NCBI GenBank assembly: GCA_029210695.1
Contig: JARGFH010000027.1
Coordinates: 1 to 48,768 of the forward strand
Origin: Acidimicrobiia bacterium
GTDB taxonomy: Bacteria > Actinomycetota > Acidimicrobiia > Spongiisociales > JAHEDJ01
Direction of reading: 5' to 3'
Length of the DNA stretch: 48,768 nt
In this document: in pieces, positions 2,217 through 31,962 of the stretch
Position numbering within the stretch: the first letter of the stretch is position 1
Layout: each line of letters starts with the position of its first letter
Program-made: the position numbers and the translations under genes
Notes under the pieces: generated by a model
Database searches by the model: none
What the model was told of the DNA's origin: nothing
The model's input: only the letters and a program-made list of their open reading frames with translations

Positions 2217-3404
2217 ATGAAGACGACAACGCCCGCGCCTCCCGACCCCCGTGATTTCCTCGCCATCGATGCACTGCTGTCCGACGAGGAGATCCTGTTG
2301 CGCGACACGGTGCGACGGTTCGTCGGTGACCGGATCTTGCCGGACGTCGGCGATTGGTTCGAAGCCGGTACGTTTCCATCTCGCCAGATGGCCAAGGAGA
2401 TGGGTGCGCTCGGGCTATTCGGCATGCACCTCGAGGGATATGGCTGTGCAGGGACATCGGCAACGGAGTACGGCCTGGCGTGCCTGGAGCTGGAGGCCGG
2501 TGACAGCGGGGCGAGGAGTTTCGTGTCCGTGCAGGGCTCCCTGGCCATGTTTCCAATTTGGGCATACGGATCTGAAGAGCAGAAGCAAGAGTGGCTTCCC
2601 GGCATGGCCGCCGGCGAAACGATCGGCTGTTTTGGCCTGACCGAACCTGATTCGGGCAGCGATCCAGCCTCGATGCGGACTCGGGCACGTCGCGACGGCG
2701 ACGACTGGGTTCTCAACGGGACAAAGATGTGGATCACGAACGGCAGCGTTGCCGACGTTGCCATTGTTTGGGCGCAGACCGACGACGGGGTGAGGGGATT
2801 CATCGTGCCCACCAATCGGGCCGGATTCTCGACGCAGGACATCCACAAGAAGGTCTCGCTGCGGGCATCGATCACGTCTGAACTGATCCTCGACGATGTG
2901 CGCTTGCCCGGCGACGCGGTTCTGCCGGGGGTCAAGGGGATGAAAGGGCCGCTGTCGTGCTTGAACGAGGCCCGCTTCGGGATTCTGTTCGGTGCCATGG
3001 GGGCGGCTCGGGCCTGCTACGAATCCGCGCTGGATTACTCGCTCGCACGAACCCAGTTCGACGTTCCGATCGCGTCGTTCCAACTGACCCAGAAGAAGCT
3101 CGCCGAGATGGCGGTGGCAGTGAACCGTGGCACGCTGCTGGCGCTCCACCTCGGACGAATGAAGGACTCCGGGACCCTCCGTCACGAGCACGTCAGCTTC
3201 GGCAAGTTCGATAATGTCCGGATGGCGCTCGATGTGGCCAGAACGGCGAGAGGCGTGCTTGGTGCCAACGGCATCACCCTCGAGTACCCGGTCATCCGGC
3301 ACATGAACAACCTCGAGTCGGTGTACACCTATGAAGGAACGAACGAGATCCACACGCTCGTCATCGGCGGCGCCCTCACCGGGATTCAGGCGTTCAGAAC
3401 CTAG
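2217..3404 (+). CDS. gcdH: Glutaryl-CoA dehydrogenase
   Basis: A 395-residue FAD-dependent acyl-CoA dehydrogenase most like glutaryl-CoA dehydrogenase, which oxidises and decarboxylates glutaryl-CoA to crotonyl-CoA in lysine and tryptophan degradation. Visible are the FAD/substrate motif G-C-F-G-L-T-E-P-D-S-G-S-D, W-I-T-N-G, the R-T-Q-F-D-V-P-I-A-S-F-Q-L segment, and a C-terminal Y-E-G-T-N-E-I-H whose Glu occupies the position of the catalytic base. The Q-G-S-L region and the I-A-S-F-Q-L-T-Q-K-K-L match favour GcdH over generic short-chain enzymes. It stands alone, without glutarate transport or CoA-ligase genes, 126 bp before trpD. Specificity is inferred from motifs. Confidence 0.85.
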   Translation: MKTTTPAPPDPRDFLAIDALLSDEEILLRDTVRRFVGDRILPDVGDWFEAGTFPSRQMAKEMGALGLFGMHLEGYGCAGTSATEYGLACLELEAGDSGARSFVSVQGSLAMFPIWAYGSEEQKQEWLPGMAAGETIGCFGLTEPDSGSDPASMRTRARRDGDDWVLNGTKMWITNGSVADVAIVWAQTDDGVRGFIVPTNRAGFSTQDIHKKVSLRASITSELILDDVRLPGDAVLPGVKGMKGPLSCLNEARFGILFGAMGAARACYESALDYSLARTQFDVPIASFQLTQKKLAEMAVAVNRGTLLALHLGRMKDSGTLRHEHVSFGKFDNVRMALDVARTARGVLGANGITLEYPVIRHMNNLESVYTYEGTNEIHTLVIGGALTGIQAFRT

Positions 3405-3531
3405 CCGGTCCGGGGGGTCCCAAGGGCCGCCCGGGATACGTGTTTCAGCCCGACCGGCGCTGCTTTGCCGCCTGGGCGACCCGCTCTCCGTAGTCGGGGT
3501 CTGCTGCGCCGGTCCTACACTGTCCCTCTCC

Positions 3532-4566
3532 ATGACTGCAGCACCGTTCTCCTGGCCCGATACGCTCGGTCGAATCACCGCCGGCGAAGACCTCGACCGA
3601 GTGACAGCCCATGCGGCAATGTCCGAGGTCATGCACGGTCGAGCAACTCAGGCCCAGATCAGTGCCTTCATCGTCTCGCTACGAATGAAGGGGGAATCTG
3701 CGGAGGAGATGACCGGGTTTGTCGAGGCGATGCGCGAAGTAGCCGTCACAGTGGATGTGGGCGTTCCGGTGGTCGACACCGTCGGGACGGGAGGTGATCG
3801 ATCGGGCACTTTCAATATCTCGACAACAGCCGGTCTGATTGCGGCCGGAGCGGGAGTTTCCGTTGCCAAGCACGGCAATCGTTCTTCGTCGTCGCAGTGT
3901 GGTTCTGCCGACGTTCTCGAGGCTCTCGGAGTCCAGATCGATCTCGACCCCGAAGCCACGGCCACGCTGGTTCGCGAGGAGCGCTTCGGCTTCTTCTTTG
4001 CTCCGCTCTATCACCCCTCCATGCGCCATGCCGGTCCGGTTCGTAGGGAACTCGGCATCCCGACCGTATTCAATTTCCTCGGTCCGCTGGCGAATCCGGC
4101 CGGAGCAACACGCCAGGCCGTCGGAGTGTCCGACGCCCGCATGGCCGGGAAAATGATCGGAGTGCTCAACAACCTCGGGTCGGATTACGCGTTCGTGTTC
4201 TACGGCGAAGACGGTCTGGACGAGCTGACCACTACCGGACCTTCATTCATCTACCGGCTGCGAAACGGCGAGATCACCCATGCCGAGTTCACTCCAGAGG
4301 ATTTCGGGGTCCCCCGGGCTAATCCCGCAGATCTACTCGGAGGCGACGCCGACCAAAACGCCAGGATCACCCGCGGAATTCTGGAGGGTGCGCCCGGACC
4401 GGCGCGCGACATCGCCCTAGTGAATGCTGCTCCGGCGATCGTGATCGCAGGCTTCGCGCAGGGTTTTGAAGAGGCGACCGCGGTCGCCGCCCAGTCGATC
4501 GATTCCGGCGCGGCCGTAGGAGTGCTCGATCGGGTGATCCGGCGTAGCCGGGAGTTGAAACGGTGA
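3532..4566 (+). CDS. trpD: Anthranilate phosphoribosyltransferase
   Basis: A 344-residue TrpD that transfers phosphoribose from PRPP to anthranilate in tryptophan synthesis. The PRPP-binding loop D-T-V-G-T-G-G-D and the following F-N-I-S-T, the K-H-G-N-R-S-S-S-S anthranilate region, G-S-A-D-V-L-E-A-L-G and F-N-F-L-G-P-L-A-N-P are all intact. I chose ATG 3532, which gives the normal N terminus, over an upstream in-frame start that would overlap gcdH. No other trp genes flank it, so tryptophan genes are scattered in this genome. Nur follows after 75 bp on the same strand. Confidence 0.95.
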   Translation: MTAAPFSWPDTLGRITAGEDLDRVTAHAAMSEVMHGRATQAQISAFIVSLRMKGESAEEMTGFVEAMREVAVTVDVGVPVVDTVGTGGDRSGTFNISTTAGLIAAGAGVSVAKHGNRSSSSQCGSADVLEALGVQIDLDPEATATLVREERFGFFFAPLYHPSMRHAGPVRRELGIPTVFNFLGPLANPAGATRQAVGVSDARMAGKMIGVLNNLGSDYAFVFYGEDGLDELTTTGPSFIYRLRNGEITHAEFTPEDFGVPRANPADLLGGDADQNARITRGILEGAPGPARDIALVNAAPAIVIAGFAQGFEEATAVAAQSIDSGAAVGVLDRVIRRSRELKR

Positions 4567-4641
4567 GCCGATCTCCGGCTACTTTGGGCGGCGATGCCTT
4601 CCATCCGGCGAGCGGACCGACCTGCGTGGATTGACGATCAC

Positions 4642-5076
4642 ATGGTGCACCTCTCGTCGGATGAACTCATCGGCGCTCTTCGGGATCAGGGACTCCGAGT
4701 TACGGCCGCACGGCGAGCCATTTGTCGGGTGCTGGCCGAGAGTCACGAGGATCACCTGTCCGCCGTCGATATCCGGAGCCGAGCTGCGCGCCGGGCCGGA
4801 ATCGAGATCAATCAGTCGACGGTGTATCGCACACTCGACGTGTTCGAGGGCCTCGGCTGGCTGCACCACGTCCACCTTGGCCACGGACCCGGAATCATCC
4901 ATGTCACCGAGCGGACCGATCATCACCATCTCGTCTGTGAATCGTGCGGGCTGTCCGTTGACGTTCCACTGGCGGAACTCGATCAGGTATTCGCAGTCGT
5001 GACCGAACGGCACGGCTTTGCCCCCACCTCAGTGCATTTCGCGCTGGTGGGCACGTGCAAGGCCTGTGCCGACTAA
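4642..5076 (+). CDS. nur: Fur-family regulator, Nur-like (nickel)
   Basis: A 144-residue Fur-family repressor. The N-terminal winged helix (L-R-D-Q-G-L-R-V-T-A-A-R-R and I-N-Q-S-T-V-Y-R-T-L-D) is followed by a metal-binding dimerisation domain. The stretch H-H-V-H-L-G-H-G-P-G, then D-H-H-H-L-V-C-E-S-C, then V-H-F-A-L-V-G-T-C-K-A-C resembles Streptomyces Nur, in which histidines of an H-x-H-L-G-H segment bind nickel. The C-x-x-C pair plus the terminal C-x-x-C would hold structural zinc. A Nur-type operator lies 1.3 kb downstream in front of a Ni/Co ECF transporter, which supports the call. ATG 4642 gives the usual family length; an in-frame ATG at 4594 is an alternative start. Zur or generic Fur are the competing assignments. 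Confidence 0.78.
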   Translation: MVHLSSDELIGALRDQGLRVTAARRAICRVLAESHEDHLSAVDIRSRAARRAGIEINQSTVYRTLDVFEGLGWLHHVHLGHGPGIIHVTERTDHHHLVCESCGLSVDVPLAELDQVFAVVTERHGFAPTSVHFALVGTCKACAD

Positions 5077-5102: not shown

Positions 5103-5735
5103 ATGCGCCTACTTGCCGCCCTCTTCGTGGTTCTTGCCCTTGTTCTGGCGGCCTGCGGCGGCGCGGCGACCACGACTACGATCGAGGCGGGCAATGCTCC
5201 CGCTCCCACCGATCCGGGTTCGACCGTCGCCGGCCCCGATGACTCCGTGACTCCCGACGATGGTGATGCTTCTACCCCGGCTGACACCGAAGCACCCCCT
5301 CCGATCGCTACCGACTTCGACGGCCCCGTTGCAGCAGATTTCACGATCGACCTCAATAAGACGGGAACCTTCACGCTGAGTGATGAGGCCCGTCCGGTGT
5401 ACCTCGTGTTCTGGGCTGAGTGGTGATCGACCTGTCGACGGGAGTTGCCCGTCGTTGATGCGATTGCCAAGGAATACGGGGACGACATCGCCTTTGTGGC
5501 CATTGCCTGGAAAGGTACCTACGAAGACACCGCGGCGCAGGCCGCCAATCTCATGCAGTCCGGCATGATGGATTGGGCGCTGGACGACGACGCTGAGATC
5601 TTCAGCCTGTACGGGGTGCCGTATCAGCCGGTCTCGTTCCTGATCACCGGTGACGACAAGGTTTTCGACACGTGGCCGGGAGTTCGAGACGAAGCGGCCA
5701 TCCGCCGGGCGCTGGATTCGCTGCTCGATCTCTGA
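5103..5735 (+). CDS. Candidate selenocysteine TlpA/thioredoxin-like lipoprotein (UxxC)
   Basis: One continuous frame of 210 codons if the internal TGA at 5424-5426 is read as selenocysteine (residue 108). The N terminus is a lipoprotein signal ending L-A-A-C-G (Cys18), then a Thr/Pro/Asp-rich linker to about residue 75, then a thioredoxin fold. The active site reads V-F-W-A-E-W-[TGA]-S-T-C-R-R-E-L-P, so the TGA falls exactly on the first cysteine of the family C-x-x-C. The fold continues after the TGA: V-V-D-A-I-A-K-E-Y-G, a Y-Q-P-V-S-F-L-I that supplies the cis-proline, and a terminal helix. A SECIS-like hairpin follows the TGA directly. The other TlpA-like lipoprotein here (31489-31962) has W-A-S-W-C-I-P-C at the same place. 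Likely an extracytoplasmic thiol/selenol oxidoreductase. A point-mutated pseudogene is the alternative. It starts 26 bp after nur. Confidence 0.75.
5426..5459 (+). promoter_or_regulatory. Putative bacterial SECIS hairpin
   Basis: Directly after the in-frame TGA, CGACGGG (5436-5442) pairs perfectly with CCCGTCG (5448-5454) around a 5-nt loop AGTTG. An outer helix of ATCGA (5426-5430) with TTGAT (5455-5459), including one G-U pair, is separated by a CCTGT bulge on the 5' side. The apical loop starts 16 nt after the TGA and has G at its second position. These values agree with the published bacterial SECIS model (loop about 16-37 nt from UGA, G among the first two loop bases). The whole element lies inside the coding sequence, as in bacterial selenoprotein mRNAs. 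Not tested by folding software. Confidence 0.7.
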
Positions 5736-5804: not shown

Positions 5805-6332
5805 ATGAATCCCTCTCAGCACACTTCTCTGGATCCACTTCCGGAAGAGCAATGGGATCCGCGACTCGATTCCGTTTTGGATCGGCTTGGGACCGTTCTC
5901 AACGTGCATCGGGTCATGGCCCGTCACCCTGATCTCATGGAAGCCTGGACCCCGCTCCGGCAGCACATCGCCACGGCAGGGTCGCTCGCCCCTCGCCATC
6001 GAGAGCTGGTGATCCTTAGGATTGCGCACCGTTTCGGCGTTGAGTATGAGTGGCACCATCACGTCGCCAGGGGGCGGGTAGTCGGCCTGAGTGACGAAGA
6101 GATCGAAGCCGTTCGACTCGGCCCGGGCGGCGAATGGAGCGACGACGACGCAACGCTCCTCGGCGCCGTGGACGAACTCCTCGACTCGCACTCTCTCTCT
6201 GATGCGAGTCGGACGTCCCTTGAAACGGAGTTCTCTGTGGAGCAGATACTCGACCTCATTGTCACGATCGGGATGTACGTCACGCTGGCGATGCTCATCA
6301 ACACGGCCGGGATCGAGATAGAGGACAACTAG
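5805..6332 (+). CDS. Carboxymuconolactone decarboxylase-family protein
   Basis: A 175-residue all-helical protein of the CMD/AhpD-like superfamily. The core R-H-R-E-L-V-I-L-R-I-A-H-R-F-G-V-E-Y-E-W and the following H-H-H-V-A-R-G-R and L-S-D-E-E-I-E-A-V are typical of the branch without the AhpD C-x-x-C, so an alkylhydroperoxidase role is unlikely. The C-terminal half repeats the helical pattern (E-Q-I-L-D-L-I-V-T-I-G-M-Y). Members include gamma-carboxymuconolactone decarboxylase and many uncharacterised proteins; no aromatic-degradation genes are adjacent. It lies 69 bp downstream of the selenoprotein candidate and 59 bp upstream of the nickel transporter. The Nur box falls in that second gap, so it probably belongs to a different transcription unit from the transporter. 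Confidence 0.85.
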   Translation: MNPSQHTSLDPLPEEQWDPRLDSVLDRLGTVLNVHRVMARHPDLMEAWTPLRQHIATAGSLAPRHRELVILRIAHRFGVEYEWHHHVARGRVVGLSDEEIEAVRLGPGGEWSDDDATLLGAVDELLDSHSLSDASRTSLETEFSVEQILDLIVTIGMYVTLAMLINTAGIEIEDN

Positions 6333-6391: not shown

Positions 6392-7381
6392 ATGCACATT
6401 CCCGATGGGTTTATCAACGGTGTGACGTCGCTGGGGGCCGGTGTCGTTGCAGTGTCGGGACTGGGGGCCAGCCTTCGCCGGGCCGGGAAGGAGCTTCAGG
6501 ATCGTCAGATCCCCCTGGCCGGGCTCATTGCGGCCTTTGTTTTCGTTCTCCAGATGCTCAACTTCCCCGTCGTCGCCGGGATGAGCGGACACCTCCTTGG
6601 AGGTGCGCTGGCGGCCATTCTCATCGGTCCCTGGATGGGGATGGTCGTCGTGTCGGTGGTCGTGATCGTTCAGGCGTTGCTGTTTGCAGATGGAGGGATT
6701 TCGGCGCTCGGGCTCAACATCGTCAACATGGGGCTTCTGACGGTGCTGAGCGGCTGGCTGGCGTACCGGTTACTCATGGCGGTGCTGCCGAAGAAGGCAG
6801 GCTCAGTTCTTCTGGCGGGGTCGTTGGCGGCATGGTTCTCAGTGGTGGTCTCCTCTCTTGGATTCGTGGGGGAGTACGCAATTGGCGGCGCTGGGGGCGC
6901 TCCGTTGTCGACGGTGCTGGCGGCGATGTCGGGGACCCATTCGCTCATCGGGATTGGTGAGGGCTTGATCACCGCCGGCGTGCTCGGCTCGGTCCTGGCA
7001 GTCCGGCCCGATCTCGTGCACGGAGCGCGGCTCTTCGGTATCCGGCACGCCGAAAACGCCGAGCTGAGCCGGCGGGCGGTCGGCGCCTTCATCGCAGGGG
7101 GAGTAGCCGTGGCGATCCTTCTGGTGACCGTGGTTGCGCCACGGGCTTCCAGCGATCCAGATGGTCTGGAACGAGTGGCCATCGATCAGGGATTTGCGGA
7201 AACAGCCACAGAACAACCGCTCGGTGACACGCCGCTTTCGGAGTACAGGCTGGTCGGCGTCGAAGATGAGCAGCTCGGCACCGTCGTAGCCGGGCTCATC
7301 GGCCTTGGGGTCACGTTCGTTGCCGGTGTCGGTCTCGTTCTGCTGGCGAGGCGAAGCCGGGGTCGTGTCGATAGCCGATGA
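6392..7381 (+). CDS. cbiM: ECF Ni/Co transporter S component, CbiM fused to a CbiN/PDGLE-like domain
   Basis: A 329-residue membrane protein. It starts M-H-I-P-D-G-F, the CbiM/NikM signature whose N-terminal amine and His2 coordinate the metal, and has about six hydrophobic segments in the first 220 residues, including N-F-P-V-V-A-G-M-S-G-H-L-L-G-G. The C-terminal part holds a further membrane helix, S-S-D-P-D-G-L-E-R-V-A (the PDGLE motif) and a final helix, so the CbiN/NikN-like component is fused on. Such proteins capture Ni2+ or Co2+ for an energy-coupling-factor transporter. The Nur box in front argues for nickel. It overlaps the next gene by 4 bp (ATGA). Confidence 0.92.
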   Translation: MHIPDGFINGVTSLGAGVVAVSGLGASLRRAGKELQDRQIPLAGLIAAFVFVLQMLNFPVVAGMSGHLLGGALAAILIGPWMGMVVVSVVVIVQALLFADGGISALGLNIVNMGLLTVLSGWLAYRLLMAVLPKKAGSVLLAGSLAAWFSVVVSSLGFVGEYAIGGAGGAPLSTVLAAMSGTHSLIGIGEGLITAGVLGSVLAVRPDLVHGARLFGIRHAENAELSRRAVGAFIAGGVAVAILLVTVVAPRASSDPDGLERVAIDQGFAETATEQPLGDTPLSEYRLVGVEDEQLGTVVAGLIGLGVTFVAGVGLVLLARRSRGRVDSR

Positions 7382-8139
7382 GCGGGACGCACACCCACGC
7401 GCTCTTCGTTCATGGGCACAGTCACCTGCACCGACTTCCTGCCTCGACCAAACTCGGTGCACTCGGTCTCTTTGTGCTGGCCGTCGTCGTTACACCGCGG
7501 GAGGCGTTCTGGGCGTTCGGCGTTCATGCCGGGTTGATCCTGAGCGCCATGTGGTTGGCAGGGTTGAAACCTAGATTCGTGGCAAAACGCCTGGTCATAG
7601 AGGTCCCATTCGTGCTGTTTGCCGTGTTTCTCCCCTTTGTCGGCGGAGGCGACCAGTTGGACATCATGGGACTGTCGCTGTCCATCGAGGGCCTTTGGGC
7701 AGGCTGGAACATCGTTGCCAAGGGAACTCTCGGCCTGGCTGCATCCATCGTGTTGACCGCCACCACGACGGTCCCCGACCTCCTTTCCGGTCTCGAGCGG
7801 CTCCGGGTACCCCGGCTCATCACCTCGATCGCCGGGTTCATGGTGCGATACCTCGATGTCATCGCAGGGGAGATGCACCGGATGCGGCTGGCAATGCTGT
7901 CGCGCGGCCACGACCCGCGCTGGATCTGGCAAGCGAGGGCGTATGCGACCTCGGCCGGTGCCTTGTTCATTCGTTCGTATGAGCGAGGCGAGCGGGTCTA
8001 CTACGCGATGACCGCCCGTGGGTTCGCCGGTCAAATTCCTACTTTCGACACCGAGCGTGCCACCGGGACCGACTGGCTGGGTGCCCTCCTCCTGCCTGCC
8101 GTCGCCTGGACTGCAACCCTGGTGGCGTTGTTCGCATGA
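7378..8139 (+). CDS. cbiQ: ECF Ni/Co transporter T component (CbiQ/NikQ)
   Basis: A 253-residue transmembrane coupling protein. Hydrophobic segments lie around residues 25-50, 65-90 and 110-135 and at the C terminus. The cytoplasmic coupling helices carry the family motifs A-M-L-S-R-G-H-D and A-M-T-A-R-G-F (the two A-x-R-G-type motifs that contact the ATPases). Its first 22 residues are unusually His-rich (T-H-T-H, H-G-H-S-H-L-H), which could bind metal at the membrane face. It overlaps cbiM and cbiO by 4 bp each, so the three genes should be translationally coupled. Confidence 0.92.
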   Translation: MSGTHTHALFVHGHSHLHRLPASTKLGALGLFVLAVVVTPREAFWAFGVHAGLILSAMWLAGLKPRFVAKRLVIEVPFVLFAVFLPFVGGGDQLDIMGLSLSIEGLWAGWNIVAKGTLGLAASIVLTATTTVPDLLSGLERLRVPRLITSIAGFMVRYLDVIAGEMHRMRLAMLSRGHDPRWIWQARAYATSAGALFIRSYERGERVYYAMTARGFAGQIPTFDTERATGTDWLGALLLPAVAWTATLVALFA

Positions 8140-8879
8140 GTGTCCCTGCGCTCGAAGTCGTCGACCTCAACTACCACTATCCAGATGGGACCGAGGTGCT
8201 CCGCAGTGTCGGGTTCCACATCCATCCGGGGGAGCGGGTTGCGTTGCTCGGCCCCAACGGAGCGGGCAAGACAACCCTGGTCTTTCATCTGAACGGCATC
8301 TTCCGGCCAGACTCAGGATCCGTGACGGTGGCCGGTTTGCCCCTCGATGACGAGCACGTCAAGGAAGTCAGGAGACGGGTCGGTATCGTCTTCCAGGACC
8401 CCGACGACCAACTCTTCATGCCGACCGTTCGCCAGGATGTCGCCTTCGGTCCGGCGAACTACGGAGTTGAAGGGGAGGAATTGCAGACCAGGGTGAATGA
8501 TGCTCTCTCGGCAGTCGGAATGCTCGACGTGGCAGGTCGACCGCCTCATCATCTCAGCGTCGGTCAACGCCGTCGGGTGGCGGTTGCGACGGTGCTGGCC
8601 ATGCAGCCGGAGATCGTGGTGCTGGACGAACCATCTTCGAATCTCGATCCCGCCTCCCGGCGAGAGCTCGCCAACATCCTCACCTCGCTGGACATCACCA
8701 TGCTGATGGTGACGCACGACCTGCCCTACGCACTCGAGTTGTGCCCGCGCTCCCTGGTCATGAACGATGGCAGGATCATCGCGGACGGGTCGACCCGTCA
8801 GATCCTCTCCAACCGGGAGCTGATGAAGGCAAACCGACTCGAGCTTCCTCTCGGTTTCGACCCGAATTTCGCTCTCTGA
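8136..8879 (+). CDS. cbiO: ECF Ni/Co transporter ATPase (CbiO/NikO)
   Basis: A 247-residue ABC ATPase that powers the transporter. Walker A is G-P-N-G-A-G-K-T-T, the Q-loop is F-Q-D-P-D-D-Q-L-F, the signature is [10 protein letters not shown], Walker B is V-V-L-D-E-P-S-S with the catalytic Glu, and the switch His is in M-V-T-H-D-L. The F-Q-D-P-D-D-Q-L-F segment is typical of ECF ATPases. Only one ATPase is present, as in other Ni/Co ECF systems, so it would act as a homodimer. Last gene of the Nur-controlled unit; no terminator-like hairpin was found immediately after it. Confidence 0.93.
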
Positions 8880-31488: not shown

Positions 31489-31962
31489 TCATCGGTTCAG
31501 GATCTCGTCTATCTGGAGTGAGAGGGTGCGCTCGTCGATCACGCCGTTGTGCCGGTAGACGAGCTCGCCTCCCGGTGCGAAGAAGTAGGTGATGGGCACT
31601 CCGACCCCGCCCAGCCTTGCCCGCACCGTTCCGGACCTATCGAAGTAGTTGTCGAATTCGAGGCCGTACTCGGAGATGAACTGGCGGGCGTTCTCTTGGG
31701 TGTCTTCAATATCAACACCGATGAAGCTCACCCGGTCACCGAACGCCTCATAGGCCGCGAAGAGCAGAGGGGCTTCAGATCGGCAGGGAATACACCAGGA
31801 AGCCCACACATTCAGCACGATCGGATCCCCGGATTCGAGGAGGCTGCTGAGGATCGCATCATCGATCGGGGGCAACTCAGGCACCTCGAGCGGAGCAGAC
31901 GTGGTTCCACAGGCGGTCAGGATCACGATGATGCTCAGCACTGTCGCCGCCATTCGTCTCAT
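31489..31962 (-). CDS. TlpA-type thiol-disulfide lipoprotein (CxxC)
   Basis: A 157-residue thioredoxin-fold protein exported as a lipoprotein (signal ending I-L-T-A-C-G, lipid-anchored Cys18). The active site is V-W-A-S-W-C-I-P-C-R-S-E-A-P (Cys57, Cys60), followed by G-V-D-I-E-D-T-Q-E-N-A and a cis-proline in G-V-P-I-T-Y-F-F. TlpA-like proteins reduce or supply electrons to exported proteins such as apocytochromes. It overlaps the sensor kinase gene upstream by 4 bp, so it belongs to the same transcript as the two-component system and could be a target or modulator of it. It is the Cys counterpart of the candidate selenoprotein at 5103-5735. Confidence 0.93.
   Translation of the reverse strand: MRRMAATVLSIIVILTACGTTSAPLEVPELPPIDDAILSSLLESGDPIVLNVWASWCIPCRSEAPLLFAAYEAFGDRVSFIGVDIEDTQENARQFISEYGLEFDNYFDRSGTVRARLGGVGVPITYFFAPGGELVYRHNGVIDERTLSLQIDEILNR

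Follow-up and report, generated by a model that had tools for sequence, protein, structure and literature searches.

A TlpA/ResA-like lipoprotein with a probable selenocysteine at its first redox position, from an apparently undescribed branch of a known selenoprotein kind in Acidimicrobiia

ResA (NF002854; PDB 1st9, 4nmu) and the pneumococcal Etrx/TlpA proteins, which use cysteine, share a full-length extracytoplasmic thioredoxin-like domain with the protein described here. It differs from them in scoring under the ResA cut-off and in having a glutamine before the cis-proline position. The Etrx proteins are surface lipoproteins (PMC3914529). The curated model NF041057, the Rcas_1661 (seleno)lipoprotein, resembles our protein in combining a lipoprotein signal with a thioredoxin-like domain and an optional selenocysteine (Sec), but our protein matches only its N-terminal half, at 24.2 bits against a cut-off of 190, and is not a member; a literature search on Rcas_1661 found nothing. 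NF041054 (ResA-like WAxxUGC) is likewise ResA-like with Sec at the first redox position, but its motif is UGC rather than UxxC, its model spans 354 positions, and our protein reaches 20.8 bits against a cut-off of 300. UxxC selenoproteins of the thiol-disulfide isomerase-like (cd02966) and thioredoxin-like 1 (COG0526) kinds are known from marine metagenomes, as described in parts of PMC1088965, PMC2398784 and PMC13188914. Like the present clade they have a TlpA/thioredoxin-like fold with Sec first and Cys second, and their Cys homologues are widespread; in those parts they are described at superfamily level, and the comparison is by description only. In passages of the three papers we found no mention of Acidimicrobiia or of lipoproteins, and a search on selenocysteine and Acidimicrobiia gave one paper that has both, which by title and abstract is not on this protein.

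The gene lies in the window, ie the whole stretch of 48,768 nucleotides that was analysed, which is contig 27 of a 3.91-Mb genome (98% complete). Its parts are as follows.

5103-5735, + strand: TlpA/ResA-like selenolipoprotein gene, 210 residues, predicted Sec at 108 (one in-frame TGA; Pfam matches; orthologues in 5/5 genomes of the genus)
5103-5156, + strand: putative lipoprotein signal peptide, MRLLAALFVVLALVLAAC, with lipobox L15-A16-A17-C18, conserved within the genus
5157-5324, + strand: low-complexity linker rich in T, P and D, recognised by composition and variable among relatives
5325-5732, + strand: thioredoxin-like domain of TlpA/ResA type (whole-domain profile matches to PDB 4evm, 4hqs, 2yp6 and to ResA 4nmu/1st9)
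5424-5426, + strand: TGA, predicted Sec codon, residue 108, first redox position of UxxC (TGA in 93 of 100 homologues, TGC or TGT in 7)
5433-5435, + strand: codon of the resolving Cys, C111, invariant in 93/93 Sec forms
5625-5630, + strand: Q175-P176, cis-proline position of the thioredoxin fold (P176 in 93/93 and Q175 in 88/93 Sec forms)

The first-pass annotation described a frame open for 210 codons except for a TGA at 5424-5426, on the first Cys of a WCxxC site, and translation confirmed it: with TGA read as U, the frame contains that single internal TGA, at residue 108, and terminates in another TGA at 5733-5735. The surrounding motif is WAEW-U-STC (W107-U108-S-T-C111), with U at the position of the first redox cysteine. 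It had also been stated that the downstream part lacks a sensible start of its own; among the listed starts only one lies downstream, a TTG within the loop of the hairpin described below (5445-5735). We read the TGA as a selenocysteine codon, and the gene as a predicted selenoprotein gene, with a probability of roughly 95%.

Pfam cut-offs were passed for AhpC-TSA (35.2 bits, cut-off 26), Redoxin (30, cut-off 26.6) and Thioredoxin (33, cut-off 23.5). A profile of 46 members, compared with PDB sequences, gave whole-domain matches, the best being 4evm, 4hqs, 2yp6, 4hqz and ResA. The first four of these we take to be the pneumococcal Etrx/TlpA lipoproteins of PMC3914529. The best NCBIfam match was also ResA (NF002854), over the full domain at 47.1 bits, under the cut-off of 170. 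An AlphaFold model built from six sequences was poor (pLDDT 47). The family signatures are WAEW[U/C]xxC, W158, Q175-P176 and G193; the fold suggests that P176 would be the cis-proline. The lipobox LAAC, residues 15-18 after a hydrophobic signal, was read by eye and points to lipidation at C18.

A wider profile search found a more distantly related TlpA-like lipoprotein in family f61, which belongs elsewhere in the phylum. It carries WESW[TGA]xxC, with Sec forms at L158 and L159 and a Cys form at L160, and shares the YQP motif; its TGA is followed by a 4-bp hairpin, GCGG/CCGC. UAG-encoded Sec was considered for distant relatives and rejected, the in-frame TAGs being terminal stops when the loci were read.

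The genes on either side of the selenolipoprotein gene are the following.

3331-4566, + strand: thymidine/pyrimidine-nucleoside phosphorylase-like gene, upstream (Pfam Glycos_transf_3, 8.6e-83), near the gene in many families
4594-5076, + strand: FUR-family regulator, upstream (Pfam FUR, 1.2e-22), a conserved neighbour in many relatives
5805-6332, + strand: CMD-domain (AhpD-like) protein, downstream (Pfam CMD, 3.9e-12)
6392-8879, + strand: cobalt transporter of cbiM, cbiQ and ABC ATPase, downstream (Pfam CbiM, CbiQ, ABC_tran), conserved beside the gene in several families

The order phosphorylase-FUR-selenolipoprotein-CMD-cbiMQO is conserved in parts of the order and names no client. A second AhpC-TSA/thioredoxin-like gene, of Cys type, lies in the window at 31489-31962 (- strand), beside a histidine kinase.

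The protein is probably a disulfide reductase, to judge from its motif and relatives. The main functional rival is that it is a Sec-containing thiol peroxidase, ie an AhpC/Prx-like peroxide scavenger. The AhpC-TSA and Redoxin matches and the CMD/AhpD-like and FUR neighbours would fit that function, and Prx-like UxxC selenoproteins are known (in part of PMC13188914). However, the motif has the form UxxC, not TxxU, its resolving cysteine never varies, and the full-domain relatives are ResA, TlpA and Etrx, with ResA also the best NCBIfam match though under its cut-off; we consider a peroxidase unlikely. A dedicated ResA/CcsX-type apocytochrome-c reductase is more doubtful still. ResA is indeed the top-scoring subfamily, but at 47 bits against 170, and no cytochrome-c maturation genes were found among the tested neighbours or in the conserved synteny. 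The source genome has CcdA/DsbD-like genes, and a separate ResA-like Cys protein adjoins CcdA at C25; a cytochrome-c role is therefore not indicated for the selenolipoprotein.

All four parts of the selenocysteine machinery, which the first-pass annotation had proposed to look for, were found in the same genome. SelA is present at 367.7 bits, and selB directly adjoins it on the same contig (298 bits, or 328 including the C-terminal part). SelD scored 398.6 bits and carries its own Sec-type TGA, in the motif GUACKL (L018:2398-2400, - strand), a known situation in which selD is itself a selenoprotein gene. The tRNA-Sec scored 73.3 bits and has the anticodon TCA. The window also contains, at 624-1886, a DUF3179 lipoprotein-like gene with CPLC, this copy having Cys; part of PMC13188914 names DUF3179 among the families that include Sec proteins.

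The gene is present with exactly one TGA in 5/5 genomes of the genus, and roughly a hundred homologues with exactly one TGA were found across 138 genomes of the order. Codon 108, compared in 100 genes across the order, is TGA in 93, TGC in 6 and TGT in 1, so that only TGA or Cys occurs there; the TGC genes include a distant paralogue (L080:1123). No second stop occurs in the matched domain among the close homologues listed, where random stops would have spoken against the selenocysteine reading. Over the 94-102 codons past the TGA, the differences from three relatives at codon positions 1/2/3 number 2/2/29, 8/5/45 and 6/7/32; they fall mostly at the third position, which marks a translated protein under selection. 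Among 395 sampled genomes of the class, matches at E <= 1e-22 were found only in this order, and a phage search gave only generic matches of 25-30% identity. Genus g45 has three tandem paralogues with one TGA each (L089, L090, L092 and L094, in genomes G110, G109, G108 and G105), and in three of those genomes the most diverged copy is without the perfect stem register of the hairpin. Genome G052 (C29 and C20; L060, L134) has the Sec form plus a diverged Cys paralogue with the motif CHTC.

The hairpin that follows the TGA was found exactly as first described in its position, stem, loop and geometry.

5436-5454, + strand: bacterial SECIS (bSECIS) hairpin, 7-bp stem CGACGGG (5436-5442) and CCCGTCG (5448-5454), loop AGUUG (5443-5447), recognised by pairing and by covariation in 91 sequences

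The spacer between TGA and stem is 9 nt (5427-5435). A fold of 51 nt gave -17.8 kcal/mol, with a z of -2.2. In the consensus of PMC13188914 (Fig. 2A, the part of that source used here) the apical loop has 3-9 nt with G in the first two loop positions, the upper stem has 4-16 bp, the distance from UGA to apical loop is 16-37 nt, and the minimum free energy is at most -7.5 kcal/mol. The present loop of 5 nt, stem of 7 bp and energy of -17.8 kcal/mol lie within these limits, and the distance of 16 nt (9 of spacer plus 7 of stem) is at its minimum. G occurs in the first two loop positions in 86/91 genes, as it does in AGUUG here. No Rfam family matched the region. As evidence in one gene the hairpin is nevertheless weak: when synonymous codons were drawn at their local frequencies for an unchanged protein, 5.6% of the sequences had a stem of 7 bp or more at the exact site, and 25% had some bSECIS-like hairpin of 7 bp. 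The case for selenocysteine therefore rests on comparison across the family.

The 91 Sec genes were aligned ungapped over the element. The stem is kept and covaries, which was the proposed check on its conservation: 89.5% of the stem cells are paired, and both sides have changed in 38 cells. Covariation was 0.227 compared to 0.124 for shuffled alignments, none of 500 shuffles was as high, and every slid register was lower. In 83/91 genes the loop is closed by an unbroken stem of 5 bp or more; the exact register is missing in 8/91, some of which have a shifted one. Compensation is seen, for example, in GAC..GTC to AAC..GTT and in CGGGGGG..CCCTCCG. The choice of codons in stem and loop fits the RNA: the loop Leu is TTG or TTA in 78/90 genes (compared to 108/719 for Leu codons later in these genes), the stem Arg is CGG in 85/87, and the stem Pro is CCC in 82/90. 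A covariance model of the element scored this site at 65 bits and the next site in the source genome at 22 bits. Beyond the SECIS, 15/91 Sec genes, at 15 loci between L099 and L140 in family f5 and part of f7, have another perfect hairpin of 5 bp at nt +33 to +46, numbered from the beginning of the TGA. Its sequence is GATGCggtcGCATC or GACGCagttGCGTC, and one difference is compensatory. This hairpin may serve as an accessory element or result from the DAVAS codons.

UGA readthrough or reassignment is found in some lineages, and the codon might accordingly be read as another residue, by a reassigned code or by Trp or Cys suppression. However, TGA serves as an ordinary stop here and also ends the selenolipoprotein gene itself, codon 108 encodes Cys wherever it is not TGA, and the genome has the Sec machinery along with a SECIS that covaries; this reading is very improbable. 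A true stop, in a Cys-type TlpA gene that is a pseudogene or carries a sequencing error, would look alike in one genome after a single change from TGC or TGT to TGA, but it is already refuted by the order-wide conservation, with TGA at the same codon in 93 homologues from many separate assemblies, purifying selection past it and no other stop in the matched domain of the close homologues listed, and its probability is close to nil. The earlier proposal of selenocysteine is thus supported by the machinery, by a site that is only TGA or Cys, and by the covarying SECIS.

The Cys homologues mostly lack the SECIS base pairs, and in three of them, from one genus, the region folds no better than shuffled sequence. 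Most come from genomes without SelA. SelA was not found in the Cys-form genomes G035, G047, G135 and G137, whose completeness is 93% or more, and tRNA-Sec is missing or scores weakly in the same four; the Cys-form genome G136 has both SelA and tRNA-Sec. Among genomes at least 90% complete, with counts compiled by hand, the Sec form occurs in 59/72 with SelA compared to 2/9 without it (Fisher p = 5.7e-4, ignoring shared ancestry). The two exceptions, G032 and G098, have tRNA-Sec and no SelA match, and the missing SelA may be due to assembly gaps. In the tree the Cys forms are nested within the Sec genes; those of G135-G137 join Sec genes from the same family in a well-supported grouping. Parsimony gives five changes between Sec and Cys, of which at least two are forced by well-supported branches; the deeper forks are poorly resolved. 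tRNA-Sec-like matches near 50 bits occur without a SelA match in G131, G132 and G135; they may be what is left of a decaying Sec trait, or else the result of assembly gaps.

The selenolipoprotein would, from its lipobox and fold, be an exported, lipid-anchored, extracytoplasmic thiol-disulfide oxidoreductase of TlpA/ResA type with Sec as the attacking residue. On strong comparative support, SelB and tRNA-Sec(UCA) would decode UGA at 5424-5426 as Sec under the direction of the hairpin, the loop of which starts 16 nt downstream. Sec108 would most likely attack an oxidised sulfur of a client, Cys111 would resolve the mixed selenenylsulfide, and a membrane electron carrier of CcdA/DsbD type, for which the genome has candidates, may re-reduce the protein. 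We infer the reductive direction, the clients and the electron donor; a general surface disulfide reductase, Etrx-like, is the favoured role.

The first-pass annotation guessed that a UxxC selenoprotein in the form of a TlpA-type lipoprotein was new in this lineage. TlpA/thioredoxin-like UxxC selenoproteins and NF041057 were already on record, so the kind is not new, but the guess holds for this clade, which is widespread in one order. No description of the clade was found in the literature, covered in part and with the published families compared by description. It scores far under the cut-offs of the curated models and is therefore called a new family of an already known selenoprotein kind. 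That it is an apparently undescribed branch of that kind, present in most of the order, is well supported. We further think it fairly likely that this is an order-wide family of surface Sec-dependent reductases dating from the ancestor of the order, with selection on both protein and SECIS, replacement by Cys in several lineages (mostly where the Sec machinery was lost), triplication in one genus and a Sec-containing WESWUxxC lipoprotein relative in another class of the phylum.

This gene, present in about a hundred genomes, would be truncated wherever annotation takes UGA for a stop, and the compact, well-aligned SECIS family could be used for a curated annotation model. The replacements by Cys, with the accompanying decay of the SECIS, amount to a natural test of the benefit of Sec over Cys. 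For this order of uncultured Acidimicrobiia as a whole, the family points to a redox protein, probably at the cell surface, that makes stable use of selenium.
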